In this document: positions 15,737 through 23,584 of the stretch, one piece after another
How positions within the stretch are numbered: position 1 is the stretch's first letter
Layout of the letters: each line of letters opens with the position of its first letter
Program-made: the position numbers and the translations under genes
The notes under the pieces: model-generated
The model's database searches: none
Told to the model about the DNA's origin: nothing
The model's input: only the letters and a program-made list of their open reading frames with translations
Assembly (NCBI GenBank): GCA_003153415.1
Contig: PLYQ01000117.1
Span: forward strand, 1 to 35,301
Reading direction: 5' to 3'
Origin: Rhodospirillales bacterium
Lineage (GTDB): Bacteria > Pseudomonadota > Alphaproteobacteria > Reyranellales > Reyranellaceae
Length of the DNA: 35,301 bases

Positions 15737-16531
15737 ATGGACCTGGGACTCGCCGGCAAACATGCACTGGTGACCGGCTCGACCGCCGGCATCGGCTACG
15801 CGTTAGCCAAGGGCCTGCTGGCCGAAGGCGCGAGCGTCGTGATCACGGCCCGTACGCAGGCCAGTGTCGCCTCGGCCTTAAAGCGCCTGAAGGATGCCGT
15901 GCCCGACGCCAAGGTGACCGCCATCGCCGCCGACTGTGCGACGGCGGCCGGCGCCAAGGCGGTGTTCGACCGCGTGCCCGAGCTAGACATCCTGGTGAAC
16001 AATCTCGGTATCTACGGCCGCAAGCCTGCCTTCGAGATCACCGACGAGGAGTGGCAGCGCTTCTTCGAGACCAACGTCATGAGCGGCATCCGCTTTGCCC
16101 GCCACTACGCGCCCGGCATGGCCCAGCGCGGCTGGGGCCGCGTCCTGTTCGTGTCGAGCGAGTCGGCGCTCAACATCCCCAAGGAAATGATCCACTACGG
16201 CATGACCAAGACCGCCCAGCTCGCGGTCTCGCGCGGCATGGCAATGGAACTGGCCGGCACGGGCGTCACCGTGAACGCCCTGCTGCCCGGCCCGACCCAC
16301 ACCGAGACCACCGACGAGTTGCGCGCCGAGCGGGCCAAGGCCTCGGGCAAGTCGGTGGCCGAGATCGAGGCCGATTTCTTCGTGAACTTCCGGCCGACCT
16401 CGCTGGTCCGCCGCTTCACCTCGGCCGACGAGGTCGCGGCGCTGGGCGTCTATCTCTGCAGCGAGGCTGCCTCGGGAACGTCCGGCGCGGCGATGCGGGT
16501 CGATGGCGGTGTGGTCAATCAGATCATGTAG
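15737..16531 (+). CDS. Short-chain dehydrogenase/reductase (SDR)
   Basis: NAD(P)-dependent oxidoreductase of 264 residues, classical SDR length. The nucleotide-binding motif is TGSTAGIG (13-20); NNLG (88-91) stands where NNAG is usual; Asn113, Ser141, Tyr154 and Lys158 form the catalytic tetrad (HYGMTK). The C-terminal end, YLCSEAASGTSGAAMRVDGGVV, is typical of FabG-like enzymes. Arg40 at the end of the second beta strand suggests a preference for NADP, though this is weak evidence. It is 17 nt after the PaaK-like gene and probably oxidises or reduces an intermediate of the compound imported by the liv system. The substrate is unknown. Confidence 0.92.
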   Translation: MDLGLAGKHALVTGSTAGIGYALAKGLLAEGASVVITARTQASVASALKRLKDAVPDAKVTAIAADCATAAGAKAVFDRVPELDILVNNLGIYGRKPAFEITDEEWQRFFETNVMSGIRFARHYAPGMAQRGWGRVLFVSSESALNIPKEMIHYGMTKTAQLAVSRGMAMELAGTGVTVNALLPGPTHTETTDELRAERAKASGKSVAEIEADFFVNFRPTSLVRRFTSADEVAALGVYLCSEAASGTSGAAMRVDGGVVNQIM

Positions 16532-16938
16532 GGCCACCCCCGGAATATGAGAAATAATCGCAGAAAAGCCCGCCACACCTGCTTTTTATGTTTCTCACCG
16601 AGGTGAGAAACAGGTGAGAAAGCGGTGAGAAACCGGCGATACCGCAGGGCTATCCGTTGGCCGGGCGCGGGCCTGTTGGCGGCCTCGAAGGCGGCCAGCC
16701 GGGCAGTAACTTACCCTCGGTCAGGCCGGCCGACGCGACGATCGAGGACGGCGGCGAAAGCCGCTTGGCGCTACAGGCGTGGGGTCGTCGTTTACTCAAG
16801 TGCCCGTTCACATTCGATCGCCCAAGGCCTGACGCGACCGTGCCACGCTGGCAAATTCGCCACATTTCCCGTATCTATTCGGCGTGCGGTCGCCCCGTTC
16901 CCCTCCCCCCAAAGGGGTCCGCGCCAAGGAGGAATATC
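16532..16938. promoter_or_regulatory. Long non-coding gap with regulatory repeat array
   Basis: This 407-bp stretch is the largest gene-free region in the window. Its first 100 bp are locally AT-richer and hold the 9-mer repeat array described separately. The remainder (about 16640-16900) shows no gene with a credible start or family resemblance; the open frames there are GC-driven. A C-run/G-run hairpin (CCCC at 16905-16910 region, AAA, GGGG at 16914-16917) lies just before the ribosome site of the next gene and could affect translation. Promoters for the downstream five-gene operon should lie here. Confidence 0.6.
16589..16632 (+). repeat. Four 9-mers at 11-bp period (one inverted, three direct): probable operator array
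   Basis: TTTCTCACC at 16591-16599 is followed by GGTGAGAAA at 16602-16610, 16613-16621 and 16624-16632. Starts are exactly 11 bp apart, so every copy lies on the same face of the helix. The first two form a perfect inverted repeat with 11-bp arms, TGTTTCTCACC and GGTGAGAAACA, around a 2-bp centre (16589-16612). A weaker fifth copy, TATGAGAAA, is at 16546-16554 (56 bp, close to five turns, upstream). The layout is that of cooperative binding by a dimeric regulator. The protein that binds is unknown. Confidence 0.8.
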
Positions 16939-17808
16939 TTGAAGAGACGCACTTTCGTCTCCGGTACGGCTGCGCTTGCGGCCGCCAGTGTGACCCCGCC
17001 GGCCTTCGCCGCGACCATCAAGCCCTATAGCTGGGATCTCAACCCGCCGACCGACAGCCGCGACAATTTCATCGCCTGGGGCAAGGGGCGCGGCGAGGAT
17101 CCGGTGTTTCTCGGCCAGCGCTGGGATCGTTTCCAGGCGCTCCTGAAGAACAAGGATATCTGGGGTGCCGCCACCATCCGTTCCTTCCTGCTGACGCCGC
17201 GCGAGGAATTCGCTTCGGTCAATCCCGCGATCCACAAGCGCGCCTACGAGCACGCCTTCCTCGACATCGGTTGGGGCGTCACCATGTCGGGCCCGCATCT
17301 GCAGGCGCGCATGACCAACGTCATCGATGTGAAGCGCGGCGAGAAGGTGCTCGAGATCGGCACCGGTTCGGGTGTGCAGTCGGCCTACATCGCCAACCTC
17401 ACCGAGAATTCCTACACGATCGAGATCATCAAGCCGCTGGGCGACCGCACGCGTGCGCTCTACGACAAGCTGATCGACAAGGGCTACACCGAGTACAAGC
17501 ACGTCAAAAGCAAGGTGGCCGACGGTTACTACGGCTGGGAAGAAGCGGGCCCCTTCGACAAGATCATCGTGACCTGCGGCATCGACCACGTGCCGCCGCC
17601 GCTCCTGCAGCAGCTCAAGGCGGGCGGCCTGATGGTGATCCCGGTCGGGCCTCCCGGCGCGCAGCGCGTGCTCAAGGTCGCCAAGACGCAAGGCGCCGAC
17701 GGATCGATCACCACCAGCCGCGAGGATATCTACGGCGGCAAGATCGTGCCCTTCGTGCCCTTCACCAAGCTCGACGGCGACAAGATCGTCGGCACGCACA
17801 ACCGCTAG
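16939..17808 (+). CDS. Exported (Tat-type signal) protein-L-isoaspartate methyltransferase-like protein
   Basis: A PIMT-family SAM-dependent methyltransferase fold with an export signal, 289 residues. TTG 16939 is chosen because AAGGAGGAATATC stands directly before it. The N-terminus KRRTFVSGTAALAAASVTPPAFA is a twin-arginine-like signal with cleavage near residue 24. The PIMT-type substrate loop is kept as TMSGPHLQARM (115-125; family form is TxSxPxxxAxM). SAM motif I is VLEIGTGSGV (137-146), the following acidic residue is Glu162, motif II is FDKIIVTCG (206-214) and motif III is LKAGGLMVIPVG (226-237). Canonical PIMT is cytosolic and shorter (about 210-220 residues); export of a SAM enzyme is unusual because SAM is cytosolic. 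It is first in a five-gene operon. The target is unknown, and non-catalytic use of the fold is possible. Confidence 0.82.
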   Translation: MKRRTFVSGTAALAAASVTPPAFAATIKPYSWDLNPPTDSRDNFIAWGKGRGEDPVFLGQRWDRFQALLKNKDIWGAATIRSFLLTPREEFASVNPAIHKRAYEHAFLDIGWGVTMSGPHLQARMTNVIDVKRGEKVLEIGTGSGVQSAYIANLTENSYTIEIIKPLGDRTRALYDKLIDKGYTEYKHVKSKVADGYYGWEEAGPFDKIIVTCGIDHVPPPLLQQLKAGGLMVIPVGPPGAQRVLKVAKTQGADGSITTSREDIYGGKIVPFVPFTKLDGDKIVGTHNR

Positions 17809-17836
17809 GCCGGGACGCTCCAGCAGGAATCACGCT

Positions 17837-20488
17837 TTGACCGTCTCGGTCGATCTCGACCATCGCCCGCCGCTCACCTTCTATCTGTCCGTCGGGCTGG
17901 TCGCCGGCAGCATCATCGCGCTGCAAATCGGCATCATGCGCGTGTTCTCCGTCGGCAGCTGGGCGCATTTCGGCTCGCTGGTCGTCAGTCTCGCCATGTT
18001 TGGCTTTGGGCTTACGTCGGCGGTGATGTGCGTGGGCAAGGGCTGGTTCGAGCGCCACTGGCAGGGCGCGGTCAAGGGCGCGCTGCTGGCCTTTGGGCCG
18101 CTGATGGTGGTGTGCAATCTCGCCGCCCAGCAGGTGCCGTTCAACGCCATCTTCCTGATCTCCGACCCGATGCAGAAGTGGCGGCTGCTCGCCAACTTCG
18201 TGCTCTACTTCCTGCCGTTCCTGGCCGGCGCGCTTTATCTCGGTGTGGTGTTCCTCAAGGCGCAGAAGACTTTCAATCGCGTCTACTTTGCCGATCTCGT
18301 CGGTTCCGGTTTGTGCGGGCTTTCCGTTCTGCTCGCCATGTACGTCTTCAACCCCGACGACCTCATCATGGCGCCGCTGCTGCTGTGGCTTGCGGGCGGC
18401 GTGTTGTGGTTCGTCTCGTTCGGCGACCGCCGCGGCCTCATCACCATCGTGGGTGTCGCCGTACTCGCCGCCGCCGTGCACTACGCTGCACCTCCGGTGC
18501 TCGGCATCCCCAAGCTCGCGGTGTCGGACTACAAGGGCGTGTCCTACGCGCGAAAGTTCCCTGACGCGCAGCGCACCTACGAACGCGCCTCGCCGTTCGG
18601 CTACATGGAGGTCTACTCCAGCTCCTACCTGCATTTCGCGCCGGGCCAGTCCGACAACGCCGCGTTCAACCTGAAGAACATGCCGGCCAACGCCTATCTC
18701 GGGCTCTACATCGATTCGGAAGGCCCGTCGGGCATCATCAAGGACCTGCCGGCCGAGGAGACGCCGTACTTCCGCTATCTGCCGATGTTCTATCCCTACG
18801 TGCTGAAGCCCGACCCCGAGACCTTCGTGGTGCAGTTCGGCGGTGGCCTCTCGACGGCCGTCGCGCTCAAATCGGGCTCGAGCCACGTCACCGTGGCCGA
18901 GGGCAACCCCGCGCTGTTGACGGCATTCCGAGAGGATGCAGGCTTGCGCGCCTTCACCGGTGACGTGCTACACAACTCCAAAGTCAGCGTCATCGACTAC
19001 GACGGTCGGCTCTACCTCGCCCACACCAGGAACCGCTACGACATCATCGACCTGTCGCTGGCCGACTCGGCGGGCCTGTCGAGCCCCGGCGGCTTCGCCA
19101 TCGTCGAGAAATATTCCTACACGCGCGAGGCGATGAGCGCCTACATGCGCGCGCTCAAGCCCGGCGGCCTCCTGTCGGTCACCTTGTGGAACAAGGAAGA
19201 GCCGCCCAAGTCGGTGCTGAAGCTCTACGCCACCATGGCTGCGGCGGCGCGCGACGTCGATGGCGGCAACATCGCCGACAAGTTCTATGTCGCCTCGTCC
19301 TATCTCTCGACGGCGACGGTGCTCTACAAGCGCGGCGGCTTCACGGCGGCGGAGATCGGCAAGCTCAACACCCACACCAAGGCGATGTCGTTCGACGAAA
19401 TCTACTATCCGGGTTTCAAGGTCGACGACTCCGACATTGCCCAGGTCCTGCAGGACTATCGCGACCAGTTCTTCTTCGAGGGCGAGGCGGCCGATCCGAC
19501 GGCGCCCTCCGAGAAGGAGCCCAACGACAAGCCGCCGCCGGGGATGACGCCGGCGGCGTCCGGCGCCGATGGGGCCAAGGACGCTGCTCCGCCGCCGCCG
19601 CGCATTCCGGCAACCGTGCTCGGCCGCATCGCCTGGCAGCGCCTCGTGAACGGCGGCTGGCAGAAGGTGGCGGAAGACTACGTCTTCGAGACCCGTATGC
19701 TGACCAACCACCAGCCCTACTTTGCCGCCTACATCAAGGTGAAGGACCTGCTGAAATTCACCGATCGCCTGGAGCTGGTGCAGGACGAGTGGGGCTACTT
19801 GCTGCTGTGGGCGACGCTCGGCATCGCGACATTGTTCGCGCTGACGCTGGTGCTGTTCCCGCTGATCTTCGGCTGGCGCACCATCTTCAGCCGCTATCCC
19901 GGCAAGGCGGGCACGATGGTCTATTTCCTTTGCCTGGGCCTGGGCTACATCATCGTCGAGGTGGGCATGATCTCCCACTTCATCCTGGCGCTCAGCAACG
20001 CCACGGTCTCGGCCTCGGTGCTGATCACCGGCATGCTGGTCTTCTCGGGTTGCGGCAGCTTCGTGTCGGAGCGCTACTACCCCCGCGCCCGCGCCATCAT
20101 GCCCCGGGTCTTTCTCGCGATCTTCGCCATCTTGGCGCTCTATGCCTTCACGATCGACTATGCGCTAGATTGGATCGGCACGCTGCCTTACGCGGTTCGC
20201 ATCGCCTGCTGCCTGCTCCTGATCATGCCGCCGGCCTTCCTGATGGGTTTCCCCATGCCGACGGCGATGACCACGCTCGGACGGCTGGGCAAGGACCACA
20301 TGTTCCTGTGGGCCTGGGGCATCAACGGCTGTTTCTCGGTGATCGGCGCCGCCCTGGCGCCGATCGTGGCCACCAGCTTCGGCTTACCGGGAGTCGTGCT
20401 GGTGGGCGCGGTCGCCTATCTCGTCGCCTTGCCCGCTTTCTTCTCCGTTCTGATGCCGCTTCCTGGAAAGCGGCCAGCAACGGCGTGA
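17837..20488 (+). CDS. Polytopic membrane protein with embedded spermidine-synthase-like domain
   Basis: An 883-residue inner-membrane protein from TTG 17837 (AGCAGGA upstream). About seven hydrophobic segments lie at 15-37, 42-65, 80-100, 117-140, 150-171, 176-195 and 201-222. A soluble domain (about 225-640) contains a Rossmann-like motif I, FVVQFGGGLSTA (330-341), the acidic Glu355 after it, YDIIDLSLAD (401-410) and LKPGGLLSVTLWN (440-452), resembling spermidine synthases. A Pro/Ala/Asp-rich linker (548-592) precedes an about six-helix C-terminal part (655-870) with MGFPMPTAM (803-811) and INGCFSVIGAALA (829-841), known from membrane-fused spermidine-synthase-like proteins. The usual aminopropyltransferase Asp residues are only partly kept, so spermidine synthesis is doubtful. 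If seven helices precede the domain, it lies on the other side of the membrane from the N-terminus. Confidence 0.8.
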   Translation: MTVSVDLDHRPPLTFYLSVGLVAGSIIALQIGIMRVFSVGSWAHFGSLVVSLAMFGFGLTSAVMCVGKGWFERHWQGAVKGALLAFGPLMVVCNLAAQQVPFNAIFLISDPMQKWRLLANFVLYFLPFLAGALYLGVVFLKAQKTFNRVYFADLVGSGLCGLSVLLAMYVFNPDDLIMAPLLLWLAGGVLWFVSFGDRRGLITIVGVAVLAAAVHYAAPPVLGIPKLAVSDYKGVSYARKFPDAQRTYERASPFGYMEVYSSSYLHFAPGQSDNAAFNLKNMPANAYLGLYIDSEGPSGIIKDLPAEETPYFRYLPMFYPYVLKPDPETFVVQFGGGLSTAVALKSGSSHVTVAEGNPALLTAFREDAGLRAFTGDVLHNSKVSVIDYDGRLYLAHTRNRYDIIDLSLADSAGLSSPGGFAIVEKYSYTREAMSAYMRALKPGGLLSVTLWNKEEPPKSVLKLYATMAAAARDVDGGNIADKFYVASSYLSTATVLYKRGGFTAAEIGKLNTHTKAMSFDEIYYPGFKVDDSDIAQVLQDYRDQFFFEGEAADPTAPSEKEPNDKPPPGMTPAASGADGAKDAAPPPPRIPATVLGRIAWQRLVNGGWQKVAEDYVFETRMLTNHQPYFAAYIKVKDLLKFTDRLELVQDEWGYLLLWATLGIATLFALTLVLFPLIFGWRTIFSRYPGKAGTMVYFLCLGLGYIIVEVGMISHFILALSNATVSASVLITGMLVFSGCGSFVSERYYPRARAIMPRVFLAIFAILALYAFTIDYALDWIGTLPYAVRIACCLLLIMPPAFLMGFPMPTAMTTLGRLGKDHMFLWAWGINGCFSVIGAALAPIVATSFGLPGVVLVGAVAYLVALPAFFSVLMPLPGKRPATA

Positions 20489-21501
20489 AGCGCCGCGCGC
20501 TGCTGTTGGGGGCCTTGCTGATGCCGACGGCTGCACATGCGCGGACGACAAAGCAGGCGGCGAAGAAACCCGCCCCGCCGCGTCCGCCATCCGGTCCGCA
20601 GCCGCTGAAGGAGGCCAAGACGCAGCTCATCGCGTTCAACGCCTCGGCCTTTCCCTATCGCGGCAACACTCCCGGCATCAACAAGCCGTTCCTCGACGCC
20701 CGCGACGGCAAACGGCGCGGCCACACCACCTTGCGCGGCGACGTGTGCTGGGAGGATACGACCTACAGCGATCGCCGGTCGCTGCTGTTCCTGCCGGCCG
20801 GATACAACCCCCAGCTTCCGGCACTGATCGTGCTCTATCTCCATGGCCAGGGTGCCACGCTCGAGCGTGACGTGCTGATGCGCCAGGCGGTGACGCGCCA
20901 GGTGGCCGAGTCCGGCCAGAACGTGGCGCTGGTGGCGCCGCAGCTTGCCTTCGATGCCGCCGACTCGAGCGCCGGGAATTTCTGGCGGCCCGGCCATTTC
21001 GCGACCTACATCGACGAGGCGGCGGAACGGCTGATGCGGCTCTATGGCGATCGCCGGGTCGGGCCGTCTTTCAACGCGGCGTCGGTCGTGATCGTGGCCT
21101 ATAGCGGCGGCTATCTCTCGGCGGCCTATGCGTTGGAACGCGGCGGGGCTACCCATCGCATCAAGGGCGTGATCCTGATGGATGCGCTCTATGGCGACGA
21201 AGACAAGTTCGCCGCCTGGGCCGCGTCGCGTCGCCGGCTCGCCTTTCTGTTCAGCGCCTATACCGACTCGACGCGCGAAGAAAATGCCACGCTGCAGGGG
21301 CTGCTCGCCAAACGGCGCATTCCCTATACGGTCAAGCTGCCCGCTTCGTTGACTCCCGGTACGATGGCGTTCGTGGCGACCGGTGGGCTCGATATGCATG
21401 GCGATTTCATGACACGCGCGTGGGCGCAGGATCCGCTCAAATCGGCCCTCGCCATGATTCCAGGATACCCGCGAATGGTTCGTGCTAAAAAGGCCGTATG
21501 A
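20485..21501 (+). CDS. Exported alpha/beta-hydrolase-like protein
   Basis: A 338-residue protein starting at GTG 20485, which overlaps the preceding stop (GTGA). The frame is open upstream, but only as an alternative frame of the membrane protein gene. Signal peptide: KRRALLLGALLMPTAAHA (cleavage near residue 19), then a Lys/Pro-rich linker (22-44). The hydrolase core has an oxyanion-type HGQG (120-123), the nucleophile elbow AYSGG with Ser207 (first Gly of GxSxG replaced by Ala), a candidate acid Asp233 in ILMDALYGDED, and His305 in LDMHGDF. It is probably an esterase or amidase of the periplasm. No named family is recognised. It ends in an ATGA overlap with the PhnZ-like gene. Confidence 0.75.
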   Translation: MKRRALLLGALLMPTAAHARTTKQAAKKPAPPRPPSGPQPLKEAKTQLIAFNASAFPYRGNTPGINKPFLDARDGKRRGHTTLRGDVCWEDTTYSDRRSLLFLPAGYNPQLPALIVLYLHGQGATLERDVLMRQAVTRQVAESGQNVALVAPQLAFDAADSSAGNFWRPGHFATYIDEAAERLMRLYGDRRVGPSFNAASVVIVAYSGGYLSAAYALERGGATHRIKGVILMDALYGDEDKFAAWAASRRRLAFLFSAYTDSTREENATLQGLLAKRRIPYTVKLPASLTPGTMAFVATGGLDMHGDFMTRAWAQDPLKSALAMIPGYPRMVRAKKAV

Positions 21502-22046
21502 GCGAACCTCTGCGCCAGGAACTTCTGGACATCTTCGTCGGCCGCGCCACCCGCCGCTATGGCTTGAGCGAGATCAATCAGCTTCAACATGCCCTGCAAG
21601 CGGCCACGCTGGCCGAAGCCGACGGTGCGCCGCCCGCGACCGTGCTGGCTGCGCTACTGCACGATGTCGGCCACATGGTTCATGATCTCGGCGAGGATCC
21701 GGCGGGCCGCGGTATCGACGACGTGCACGAGGAACTGGGCGCACGGTGGCTGGCCGAACGGTTCGGCCCCGAGGTCAGCGAGCCGGTCCGGCTGCATGTC
21801 GCGGCCAAGCGCTATCTCTGCGCCGTCGAGTCGGACTATTTCAGCAAGCTCTCGCCCGATTCCGTCCGAAGCCTTGGATTGCAGGGCGGGCCGATGTCGG
21901 CCGGCGAGATCGAGACGTTCCGGCGCCATCCGCAGCATGCCGAAGCGGTGCGCCTGCGCCGCTATGACGAGGCGGCGAAGGACCCTCGCGCCTCGACCCC
22001 CGACTTCGATCATTTCCTGCGCCACGTCGCCGCTTGCCGTCGATGA
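21498..22046 (+). CDS. PhnZ-like HD-domain mixed-valent diiron oxygenase (phosphonate-type)
   Basis: An HD-domain protein of 182 residues with the full pattern of the PhnZ/TmpB family, which oxidatively cleaves C-P bonds of hydroxylated phosphonates using a diiron centre. Predicted iron ligands are His31, His55, Asp56, His77, His100 and Asp157. Lys104 in HVAAKRYL and the block LGLQGGPMS (126-134) are family hallmarks. Tyr21 matches the gating Tyr24 of PhnZ, but the position equivalent to PhnZ Glu27 is Ser24, with Glu25 next to it, hinting at a different substrate. No PhnY-like hydroxylase or phosphonate transporter is in the window. The start ATG overlaps the previous stop (ATGA), and the end overlaps the next gene likewise. 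Family is well supported from remembered sequences; substrate is open. Confidence 0.82.
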   Translation: MSEPLRQELLDIFVGRATRRYGLSEINQLQHALQAATLAEADGAPPATVLAALLHDVGHMVHDLGEDPAGRGIDDVHEELGARWLAERFGPEVSEPVRLHVAAKRYLCAVESDYFSKLSPDSVRSLGLQGGPMSAGEIETFRRHPQHAEAVRLRRYDEAAKDPRASTPDFDHFLRHVAACRR

Positions 22047-22966
22047 TCGAGCGCCCGCAAGTCGAGGCGGCGTGGGATCGCATCCGGCCGCATGTCCGTC
22101 GCACGCCTGTCATCGAGCTGAAAGCCGGCAGCTTCGGCGTTTCTGCGCCTCTTGCGCTGAAGCTCGAGCAGATGCAGGTCAGCGGCTCGTTCAAGGGCCG
22201 CGGCGCCTTCCACAAGCTCCTGGCCTCGAAAGTGCCGACGGCCGGCGTGATCGCGGCTTCTGGCGGCAATCATGGCGCGGCCGTCGCCTATGCCGCCCGC
22301 GCGCTGGGCTACAAGGCCGAAATTTTCGTGCCGACCATCGCCTCTCCGGCCAAGGTGGAACGGCTGAAGAGCTATGGCGCAACGGTACATCAGGTCGGCG
22401 CGGTCTATGCCGAAGCGCGTGCCGCCTCGGAAAAGCGCGCCGGCGAAACCAGCGCGCTCGCCATCCCTGCCTATGAGGACCCTGTGGTGTTCGCCGGTGC
22501 TGGCAGCGTGGCGTTGGAGTTTGCCGAACAGGCGACCTTCGACACCTTGCTGGTCGCAGTCGGCGGCGGCGGCCTGATCGCGGGCTGTGCGGTGGCAATC
22601 GGTGCGGCGACAAAGATCGTCGCGGTCGAGACCGAAGGCACGCCGACACTTTACGAAGCACGCCGCGCAGGCAAGCCGGTCGAGGTGAAGATTTCCGGCA
22701 TTGCTGCCGACGCGCTGGGCGCCAGCCGCATCGGGGCGCCCAATTTCGAGGTCGCCCAGAAATTGGTGGCCGGATCGGTGCTGGTGAGCGACACCGCCGT
22801 GCGCGCCGCGCAACGCGCGCTGTGGGACGAGCTGAGACTGATCTCCGAGCCGGCCGGCGCCACCGGCCTTGCCGCGCTGATGGCCGGCGCCTATCGGCCG
22901 GCGTCGGGTGAGTGCGTCGGAGTGCTGATCTGTGGTGCCAATACGGAGCCGGCGTCCGCCGTCTAG
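22043..22966 (+). CDS. PLP-dependent threonine/serine dehydratase-like enzyme (fold type II)
   Basis: Cytoplasmic PLP enzyme of 307 residues; ATG 22043 overlaps the upstream stop (ATGA), better than the TTG nine bases earlier. The PLP lysine is Lys51 in SGSFKGRGAF, the substrate loop is SGGNHG (73-78), the phosphate-binding loop is GGGGLIAG (174-181), and AYEDPVVFAGAGSVALEF (143-160) corresponds to the dehydratase pattern. It lacks the C-terminal ACT regulatory domain of biosynthetic IlvA and resembles catabolic dehydratases, serine racemase and related ammonia lyases. As last gene of the five-gene operon beside a PhnZ-like oxygenase, it may process an amino acid or amino alcohol derivative made by that pathway. 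The reaction is inferred only at family level. Confidence 0.88.
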   Translation: MIERPQVEAAWDRIRPHVRRTPVIELKAGSFGVSAPLALKLEQMQVSGSFKGRGAFHKLLASKVPTAGVIAASGGNHGAAVAYAARALGYKAEIFVPTIASPAKVERLKSYGATVHQVGAVYAEARAASEKRAGETSALAIPAYEDPVVFAGAGSVALEFAEQATFDTLLVAVGGGGLIAGCAVAIGAATKIVAVETEGTPTLYEARRAGKPVEVKISGIAADALGASRIGAPNFEVAQKLVAGSVLVSDTAVRAAQRALWDELRLISEPAGATGLAALMAGAYRPASGECVGVLICGANTEPASAV

Positions 22967-22969
22967 GGT

Positions 22970-23018
22970 GATTCCACGACAAGCGGAATCGTTCACGCGC
23001 ATTCCGCCGCCGGCGGAA
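22970..23018. terminator. Two adjacent hairpins between convergent genes
   Basis: GATTCC (22970-22975) pairs with GGAATC (22985-22990) around a 9-nt loop. TTCCGCC (23002-23008) pairs with GGCGGAA (23012-23018) around GCC. They fill the 57-bp gap between the converging dehydratase gene and the small exported protein gene. Neither has a T-run, so they may act as a bidirectional transcription block or an mRNA end stabiliser. They also resemble the short palindromic intergenic repeats frequent in alphaproteobacterial genomes. Confidence 0.45.
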
Positions 23019-23023
23019 CCGCT

Positions 23024-23584
23024 CTAGCGCGTGACGGACGTCACGACGGCACGGTTGGCGCGGCCGGCACCGTCGCTGTAGTCGAAGCGGATGGCGAACT
23101 TGTCGGCGGGCGAGATCCACCAGCGTGAGATCGCGCGCTCGCCTTTGTCACCCTGCTCATTCATCTCGATCACGAACGTGTCGATCATGGCGTCGCCGGG
23201 GCCGGTGCGCCTCTCGTAGCGGGCGACCGTGAGTACGTAATGCCATTTGCGGCCGCCGGCGCTGTAGTCGGCCTCGATCTTCTTGCCGATCTGCAACGGC
23301 CACAGGCGTTCCGGCCTGAGCGCGGCGATGAAGGCCGAGGTGTCGCCGCCGTCGGCCGAGGGATTGTCGATCAGAAGCGCGCGGACCTTGGAGGGCTTAC
23401 CGCCCTGGACCTCCATTGTGCAATCCATGCCGTCGCGGCCGCGCGCCACCACCTTGGTGCCGCTGTCGTAGGTGAAGACCGTGCCCGAGTTGGGGCAGTC
23501 GAAGTCCATGGTCTGGGCGGCGGCAGGTCGGGCGAATGCGGCAACAACCAAGGCGAGGATGAACGGAAAAACAAATATCGGCAT
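23024..23584 (-). CDS. Small exported protein of unknown function
   Basis: A 186-residue protein with a clear signal peptide (FVFPFILALVVAAFARPAAAQ, cleavage near residue 23-24). The mature part has two cysteines (in DFDCPNSG and GMDCTMEV) that could form one disulfide, an otherwise soluble beta-rich composition, and aromatic segments RKWHYVLTVARY and RWWISPADKFAIRFDYSDG. I do not recognise the family. It faces the five-gene operon tail to tail and is downstream of the three-heme cytochrome gene, 49 nt away. No ribosome site precedes the ATG; a TATAAT box ends 7 bp before it, so a leaderless transcript is possible. Confidence 0.75.
   Translation of the reverse strand: MPIFVFPFILALVVAAFARPAAAQTMDFDCPNSGTVFTYDSGTKVVARGRDGMDCTMEVQGGKPSKVRALLIDNPSADGGDTSAFIAALRPERLWPLQIGKKIEADYSAGGRKWHYVLTVARYERRTGPGDAMIDTFVIEMNEQGDKGERAISRWWISPADKFAIRFDYSDGAGRANRAVVTSVTR

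Follow-up and report, generated by a model that had tools for sequence, protein, structure and literature searches.

A recurrent gene trio for a PIMT-like methyltransferase, a polytopic membrane protein and a predicted esterase hints at methyl transfer outside the bacterial cytoplasm

We report a core of three genes, for a PIMT-like methyltransferase, a large membrane protein that we call SPM and a predicted esterase, which recurs across Proteobacteria and a few other phyla and is supported as a coupled envelope module. The genes lie in contig PLYQ01000117.1 (35,301 nucleotides, the whole of which is called the window here) of a Rhodospirillales bacterium of the family Reyranellaceae, assembly GCA_003153415.1, a draft of 367 contigs totalling 5.6 Mb; the genus is taken to be Reyranella. 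Enzymes dependent on S-adenosylmethionine (SAM) are taken to be cytoplasmic because their donor is, and the trio hints at methyl transfer outside the cytoplasm, where that donor would be unexpected. The module is solid, and the function that we propose for it is a hypothesis. In the window the trio is followed by two further genes, for a PhnZ-like oxygenase and a pyridoxal phosphate (PLP) dehydratase, which are taken as genus-level additions to it. A text search of the open-licence PMC literature returned no description that we recognised as the trio.

Results

The five genes, whose positions and order were read from the open reading frames, occupy 16939-22966 and are all on the plus strand. 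The PIMT-like gene (16939-17808; 289 residues, with a TTG start after AGGAGG) is separated by 28 nt from the SPM gene (17837-20488; 883 residues, likewise with a TTG start), which overlaps the hydrolase gene (20485-21501; 338 residues) in GTGA; ATGA overlaps join the hydrolase gene to the PhnZ-like gene and the latter to the PLP gene. This is the compact, one-directional layout that an initial annotation of the window had described, and its coordinates are correct.

SPM was searched for by sequence only, with a seed alignment (A2) built from SPMs that have PIMT neighbours and leaving out PIMT-less paralogues. At E 1e-10 a match was found in 20 of 289 genomes drawn from the class and in 28 of 299 drawn from the phylum, genus members included; from the phylum draw, a partial match (G488:C165) and matches below about 70 bits were left out of the neighbourhood work. 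A named scan of 535 relatives kept at least 79 loci, and among the matches listed are loci of Mesorhizobium, Devosia, Bauldia, Methylocapsa, Prosthecomicrobium hirschii and Lichenibacterium, as well as of Burkholderiales and Gammaproteobacteria metagenome-assembled genomes (MAGs), Riflebacteria, Desulfarculales and a Patescibacteria MAG. Loci were binned by SPM score, with limits set after the scores were seen, as core-type (at least 1000 bits), more distant (400-1000 bits) or low-scoring (below 400 bits), and PIMT and esterase genes, recognised by profiles of the three proteins, were counted within 2 kb of SPM where enough flank was present. Short flanks excluded 7 core-type loci, 4 more distant ones and 1 of low score beforehand; also set aside were 3 contig duplicates (L071, L074 and L165; others may remain) and 24 named loci assigned to the genus by an SPM identity of at least 79%.

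Outside the genus, PIMT lies within 2 kb of SPM in 65 of the 66 core-type loci (the miss being L073) and the esterase in 51. A neighbourhood search with the 883-residue protein as query had been proposed in the initial annotation as the check on its five-gene grouping, and it upholds these two companions; the PhnZ-like and PLP genes were encountered next to the trio in the genus only. Among the 13 more distant loci, 12 have PIMT, which is downstream of SPM in 5 of them, and none has the esterase; in L079 the PIMT gene is about 5 kb upstream. Neither partner was found near any of the six SPM-like proteins scoring below 400 bits. If only the draws are considered, PIMT falls inside the 2-kb limit at 13 of the 15 class loci examined and at all 18 phylum loci, each scoring 400 bits or more; another two phylum-draw loci, below 400 bits, have no PIMT there. 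In a small control, 18 PhnZ loci with about 1.5 kb on each side gave no PIMT or esterase match.

The arrangement of the core varies. PIMT is mostly upstream of SPM, convergent with it in L150 and divergent in L209. In L154, from the Desulfarculales, SPM and the esterase form one frame of about 1180 residues, the join of which is a basic stretch with an extra hydrophobic helix, so that the esterase part would end up outside; a similar frame in L149 was left uncounted as its SPM is truncated and frame-broken. A PIMT-SPM fusion was looked for among the profile matches and none was found. In a tree built quickly from 57 SPM rows, the core type forms a single branch and the more distant loci form two, one with PIMT upstream and the other with PIMT downstream, and the 400-1000-bit bin spans both; two long branches leave the deep joins of the tree unsure. 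On a Microvirga plasmid an annotated PIMT adjoins an SPM that is annotated as a SAM-dependent methyltransferase; longer plasmid-borne members, where named, carry that name only, and one match is a 'hypothetical protein'. Other recurring neighbour frames, among the 30 clusters listed, include several that are antisense or neighbours in Mesorhizobium. An AMP-binding gene recurs in six SPM loci close to the genus, while frames of ABC-ATPase-like (25 loci) and SDR-like (10 loci) type lie at varying distances and on either strand. Duplicated partners were also seen: tandem PIMT-like genes upstream of SPM in L146 (6080-7956), L147 (1639-3515) and L153 (6083-7956), two PIMT-like genes downstream of it in L072, and tandem esterase-like genes downstream of it in L101, L102 and L157, which come from close relatives of the genus.

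The first protein of the trio carries a PCMT domain (133.7 bits against a curated cut-off of 20.3; E 1e-38), and its profile finds as best matches in the PDB 4l7v (1.7e-63) and 3lbf (2.6e-60), which we take to be the Vibrio cholerae and Escherichia coli PIMT structures. Chain t of 8qby, a PIMT-named entry which may belong to a large complex, is also among the matches. Residues L138, E139, G141, T142, G143, S144, G145, E162, D195 and G196, presumably SAM-binding motif positions, are invariant in 54 aligned rows, and the likeness to protein-L-isoaspartate O-methyltransferase (PIMT/Pcm) thus covers the whole catalytic domain and the SAM motifs. Pcm is a cytoplasmic enzyme, whereas the trio's PIMT is paired with SPM and is predicted, from its N-terminus, to be exported or membrane-anchored in most members. 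The window protein has a twin-arginine-like leader (KRRTFVSG); a hydrophobic N-terminal stretch is present in 41 of the 54 rows, the window included, and is preceded by RR in 28. The leader type varies among members, being Sec-like by eye in L061, L144 and L152, and the PIMT of G044 has an N-terminal anchor. The window's genome also encodes a second PIMT relative (L206, a 217-residue open frame) which starts without a leader.

SPM has no Pfam match at E 0.001 (Spermine_synth appears at 0.29 only) and a weak PRK03612 match (5.4e-05) over residues 335-470. Its structure model, with a predicted local distance difference test score (pLDDT) of 88.6 and a predicted template-modelling score of 0.88, comprises seven helices, a domain at about residues 225-605 and seven more helices, as read off the helix list. 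The domain aligns with 1uir_B over 273 residues (Z 19.8, root-mean-square deviation 4.2), which gives it a spermidine-synthase fold. No known transmembrane fold is among the model's structure matches, which centre on residues 229-604, the transmembrane blocks not having been searched alone. With loops widened by three residues, lysine and arginine amount to 0.145 per residue on one side of the membrane and 0.023 on the other, and the bias points the same way in every one of the 54 rows; from this the SAM-fold domain is predicted to face the outside or periplasm. Common ancestry of this domain with the PIMT, at an hhalign probability of 7.9%, is not claimed.

The fold thus bears out the initial description of SPM as spermidine-synthase-like, but the acidic residues of an aminopropyltransferase are missing. 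Opposite the first aspartate of D-x-x-D-P, which we take to be a functional position of aminopropyltransferases, column 407 has serine in 45 of 54 rows and never aspartate. Columns 334-338 hold no acidic residue in any of the 54 rows, an aspartate standing at 339 in six; the acidic residue of GxG(D/E)G is a spermidine synthase motif position in the excerpted text of PMC10349129. Spermidine synthase activity was rejected for SPM on account of the missing acids at 334-338 and 407. The idea that Ile/Leu338 substitutes for the acidic residue was dropped, as HMMER alignments set Gly336 or a gap opposite it; the claim is that no acid stands there. Two pocket positions are conserved, E355 in 51 and D/E389 in 50 of the 54 rows. 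Compared with SpeE and the PRK03612-type membrane forms, SPM shares the fold of the soluble domain and differs in lacking the acids at these two positions, in its flanks of seven and seven transmembrane helices and in the predicted outside location of the domain.

The third protein had been called an exported alpha/beta-hydrolase from the start, and this holds: it has no Pfam match at E 10, and its profile no PDB sequence match at 0.1, but its structure model (pLDDT 93.0) has the alpha/beta-hydrolase fold, with CE1-type structural neighbours (5vol_H: Z 16.5, root-mean-square deviation 3.0, 209 residues aligned). The candidate triad S207-D233-H305 and the HG at 120-121 are invariant in 40 esterase rows. 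Three distant members were scanned for Pfam Esterase, one reaching 17.3 bits against a cut-off of 22. A hydrophobic N-terminal stretch is present in 34 of the 40, with RR before it in 19. The model and the leader predict an exported CE1-like serine esterase, similar to CE1 esterases, esterase D and feruloyl esterases in fold and in its Ser-Asp-His residues, and unlike them in lacking a Pfam or PDB sequence match and in the place where we found it, next to SPM.

Within the genus, SPM is present in 35 of the 37 genomes searched, and 28 loci had enough flank for neighbourhood counts, the window's genome not being counted and six genomes being dropped because their contigs were too short. PIMT and SPM are at most 400 bp apart in all 28, as are SPM and the esterase. 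A full-length PhnZ-like gene follows the trio in 26, L051 having an 11% remnant and L054 none, and the PALP-family PLP gene is within 400 bp of the PhnZ-like gene in 25, L051 included; in the exceptions it was not seen (L038), lies 4.2 kb away (L044) or directly follows the esterase (L054). In 24 of the 28 loci the five genes stand side by side at full length, although one of the 24 (L058) has a frameshifted SPM, and the adjacency is therefore beyond chance. By comparison, an SDR gene upstream is within 400 bp in 2 of the 28, with no same-strand SDR match seen in 14. PhnZ was found in 37 of 41 genus genomes; G016 and G005 keep the trio and lack PhnZ. The five-gene order is a stable trait of the genus, and a functional link of all five genes, local to the genus, may therefore exist. 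Two genomes of the genus, G004 and G006, have a second SPM-PIMT pair in reversed order beside the core one. A further SPM-like subfamily occurs in the genus (L064, L065 and L066) with no PIMT or esterase nearby.

The two appended genes encode a PhnZ/TmpB-like HD oxygenase (21498-22046, plus strand) and a fold-type II PLP serine/threonine dehydratase of the PRK08246 subfamily (22043-22966, plus strand), both genus-specific neighbours outside the conserved core. The first narrowly misses the TIGR03276 cut-off (212.0 against 214.6 bits), for which reason we call it PhnZ-like, and matches TmpB (6npa, 1.8e-36) and PhnZ (4.7e-26) over nearly its whole length; the second scores 393 bits against a cut-off of 331 for PRK08246 and matches PALP at 1.3e-65. 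The family placements initially given to these two proteins and to the PIMT are thus correct. At E 1e-5 neither gene has a match in 90 non-genus loci with SPM above 400 bits; in 82 of these the sequence continues for 1.5 kb or more past SPM. Of the 289 class genomes, 61 contain PhnZ relatives, and in the non-genus genomes with matches to both (G222, G184, G123 and, with a weak SPM match, G072) PhnZ and SPM are on different contigs. In L213, from another family, a PhnZ relative of 67% identity abuts genes for an HpnW-type oxidoreductase and the 2-aminoethylphosphonate (2-AEP) permease PhnU2, a setting to be expected of a phosphonate oxygenase. No PALP match was seen in the 1.5 kb around either of the two nearest non-genus relatives (73% and 72%). 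PhyH, which we take to be the family of the usual PhnY/TmpA-type partner, has no match on the window contig, all 12 PhyH-family matches of the genome being on other contigs; the appended HD protein differs in this from the PhnZ/TmpB oxygenases that it matches in sequence.

Of the signals that the initial annotation placed around the operon, the array before it is real, at 16590-16633, and consists of four 11-nt GGTGAGAAAC units, one of them inverted, with no strand assigned; its link to the operon did not hold. When one mismatch was allowed, a two-unit pattern gave eight matches in the genome, spread over five contigs, and a reversed control gave none; the matches overlap on contigs C141 and C243. 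With the same tolerance single units are no rarity: 8 of 100 shuffles reached the window's count. No such array was found in the corresponding stretches of 28 relatives, which, with the two-unit pattern on four other contigs, rules it out as the operon's operator and makes it a dispersed genomic repeat. Two hairpins without a T-run do follow the last gene (22967-23032, plus strand; -31.3 kcal/mol, z -2.73 against shuffles), but a scan that included the hairpin site found no intrinsic terminator after the last gene. A scan of 16500-23150 found no sigma-70-type promoter-like site.

Discussion

We infer that carboxyl methylation or isoaspartate repair outside the cytoplasm is the best reading of the trio, and tentatively favour, at somewhat less than even confidence, a conserved extracytoplasmic SAM-enzyme module. 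The exported PIMT would methylate carboxyl groups of envelope proteins, isoaspartyl residues first; SPM would present or conduct SAM to the outer face, or act there as a second methyltransferase; and the esterase would remove or process the methyl ester, forming a writer/eraser pair with PIMT. Since the PIMT family makes methyl esters, a serine esterase beside it would naturally serve as the eraser. Should both PIMT and the SPM domain be periplasmic and retain nucleotide-binding features, SAM or a related compound has to be present in that compartment. An enzyme exported in folded form by the twin-arginine (Tat) route could take one SAM molecule out with it, which members with Sec-like leaders could not do; the variable leader type therefore speaks against Tat-folded enzymes as the only way out for SAM, and SPM, with its 14 helices, becomes the natural candidate for bringing or presenting the donor. 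That SPM moves or presents SAM across the inner membrane to an exported PIMT which repairs or marks aged envelope proteins, with the esterase reversing the mark, in several phyla, is a narrower proposal and a rather doubtful one.

Several points weigh against the proposed methylation module. The PIMT falls below the NCBIfam PIMT equivalog cut-offs (153.6/188, 130.1/282 and 123.6/159.05), and we therefore call it PIMT-like. At the threshold used, 13 of 54 PIMT rows and 6 of 40 esterase rows have no clear leader, the threshold being our own and the N-termini hinging on the start codon chosen. As 15 of the 66 core-type loci and all 13 more distant ones have no detected esterase, the esterase is not essential to the PIMT-SPM pair, and as none of the six low-scoring SPM-like proteins has PIMT nearby, this type of protein can work without it. 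The loci are not independent, many being from Mesorhizobium, and the search seed consisted of PIMT-linked SPMs. Finally, periplasmic SAM, SAM binding by SPM and methyl-ester chemistry are all things that we infer.

An unlikely alternative is that SPM is itself the catalytic membrane methyltransferase of exported proteins, with PIMT an accessory or second modifier, in the manner of NHMT, a fungal N-terminal-histidine methyltransferase. In the excerpted account of that enzyme, seven transmembrane helices anchor a spermidine-synthase-like domain in the endoplasmic reticulum, where it modifies secreted proteins, and the authors note loss of the D/E in GxG(D/E)G (PMC10349129), much as columns 334-338 of SPM are acid-free. 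NHMT thus shows that exported proteins can be methylated by a protein of this build; the authors also raise the matter of limited SAM in its compartment (PMC10349129). However, NHMT is eukaryotic, its seven-helix region is given there as confined to filamentous fungi, bar one unclassified fungus, and the excerpt mentions no PIMT or esterase partner (PMC10349129); SPM has a second seven-helix block, and the likeness is one of description. We give no greater credence to a role of SPM in transporting or sensing a nucleoside-type ligand (SAM, methylthioadenosine or a signal), in which the SAM-fold domain would serve for binding alone and PIMT and the esterase would process the ligand rather than proteins. 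Fourteen helices around a ligand-binding fold, and the conserved pocket positions E355 and D/E389, would suit such a role, but PIMT keeps its canonical motifs, more than ligand processing seems to require, and the transmembrane blocks have no fold assignment, the structure-match rows centring on 229-604.

The initial annotation had taken the tight coupling of the five genes to mean one pathway, perhaps acting on an amine- or phosphonate-bearing envelope component or nutrient. The coupling is real, the trio is conserved, and three of the five products have support for a place in the envelope. The five-gene order in 24 of 28 same-genus loci, the presence of PhnZ in 37 of 41 genus genomes and the L213 relative beside oxidoreductase and 2-AEP permease genes would agree with a single pathway. 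However, an amine or phosphonate pathway for all five is unsupported, because, in the 90 loci outside the genus, neither the PhnZ-like nor the PLP gene was matched beside the core and because the four non-genus genomes with both keep PhnZ and SPM on separate contigs; with the trio lacking PhnZ in G016 and G005 and every PhyH-family match of the genome on another contig, we consider it very improbable. It is harder still to credit that shared inheritance alone holds the trio together with no common function: the sample is largely alphaproteobacterial and some loci are near copies, but against this stand the reversed, convergent and divergent placements, the second pair in the same genomes, the fused frame of L154, and other recurring frames that are Mesorhizobium neighbours, the AMP-binding gene or the scattered ABC-ATPase-like and SDR-like frames. 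An anti-phage module was rejected, PADLOC having given only partial mad2 matches to the two SAM-fold proteins (48.2 and 26.3 bits).

With a motif-intact, predicted exported methyltransferase tied to the 14-helix SPM, the trio allows a periplasmic supply of SAM to be probed directly. It also bears on whether isoaspartate repair exists in long-lived envelope proteins and, if the proposed methylation module is correct, a membrane-protein family that matches no Pfam model would gain a function.

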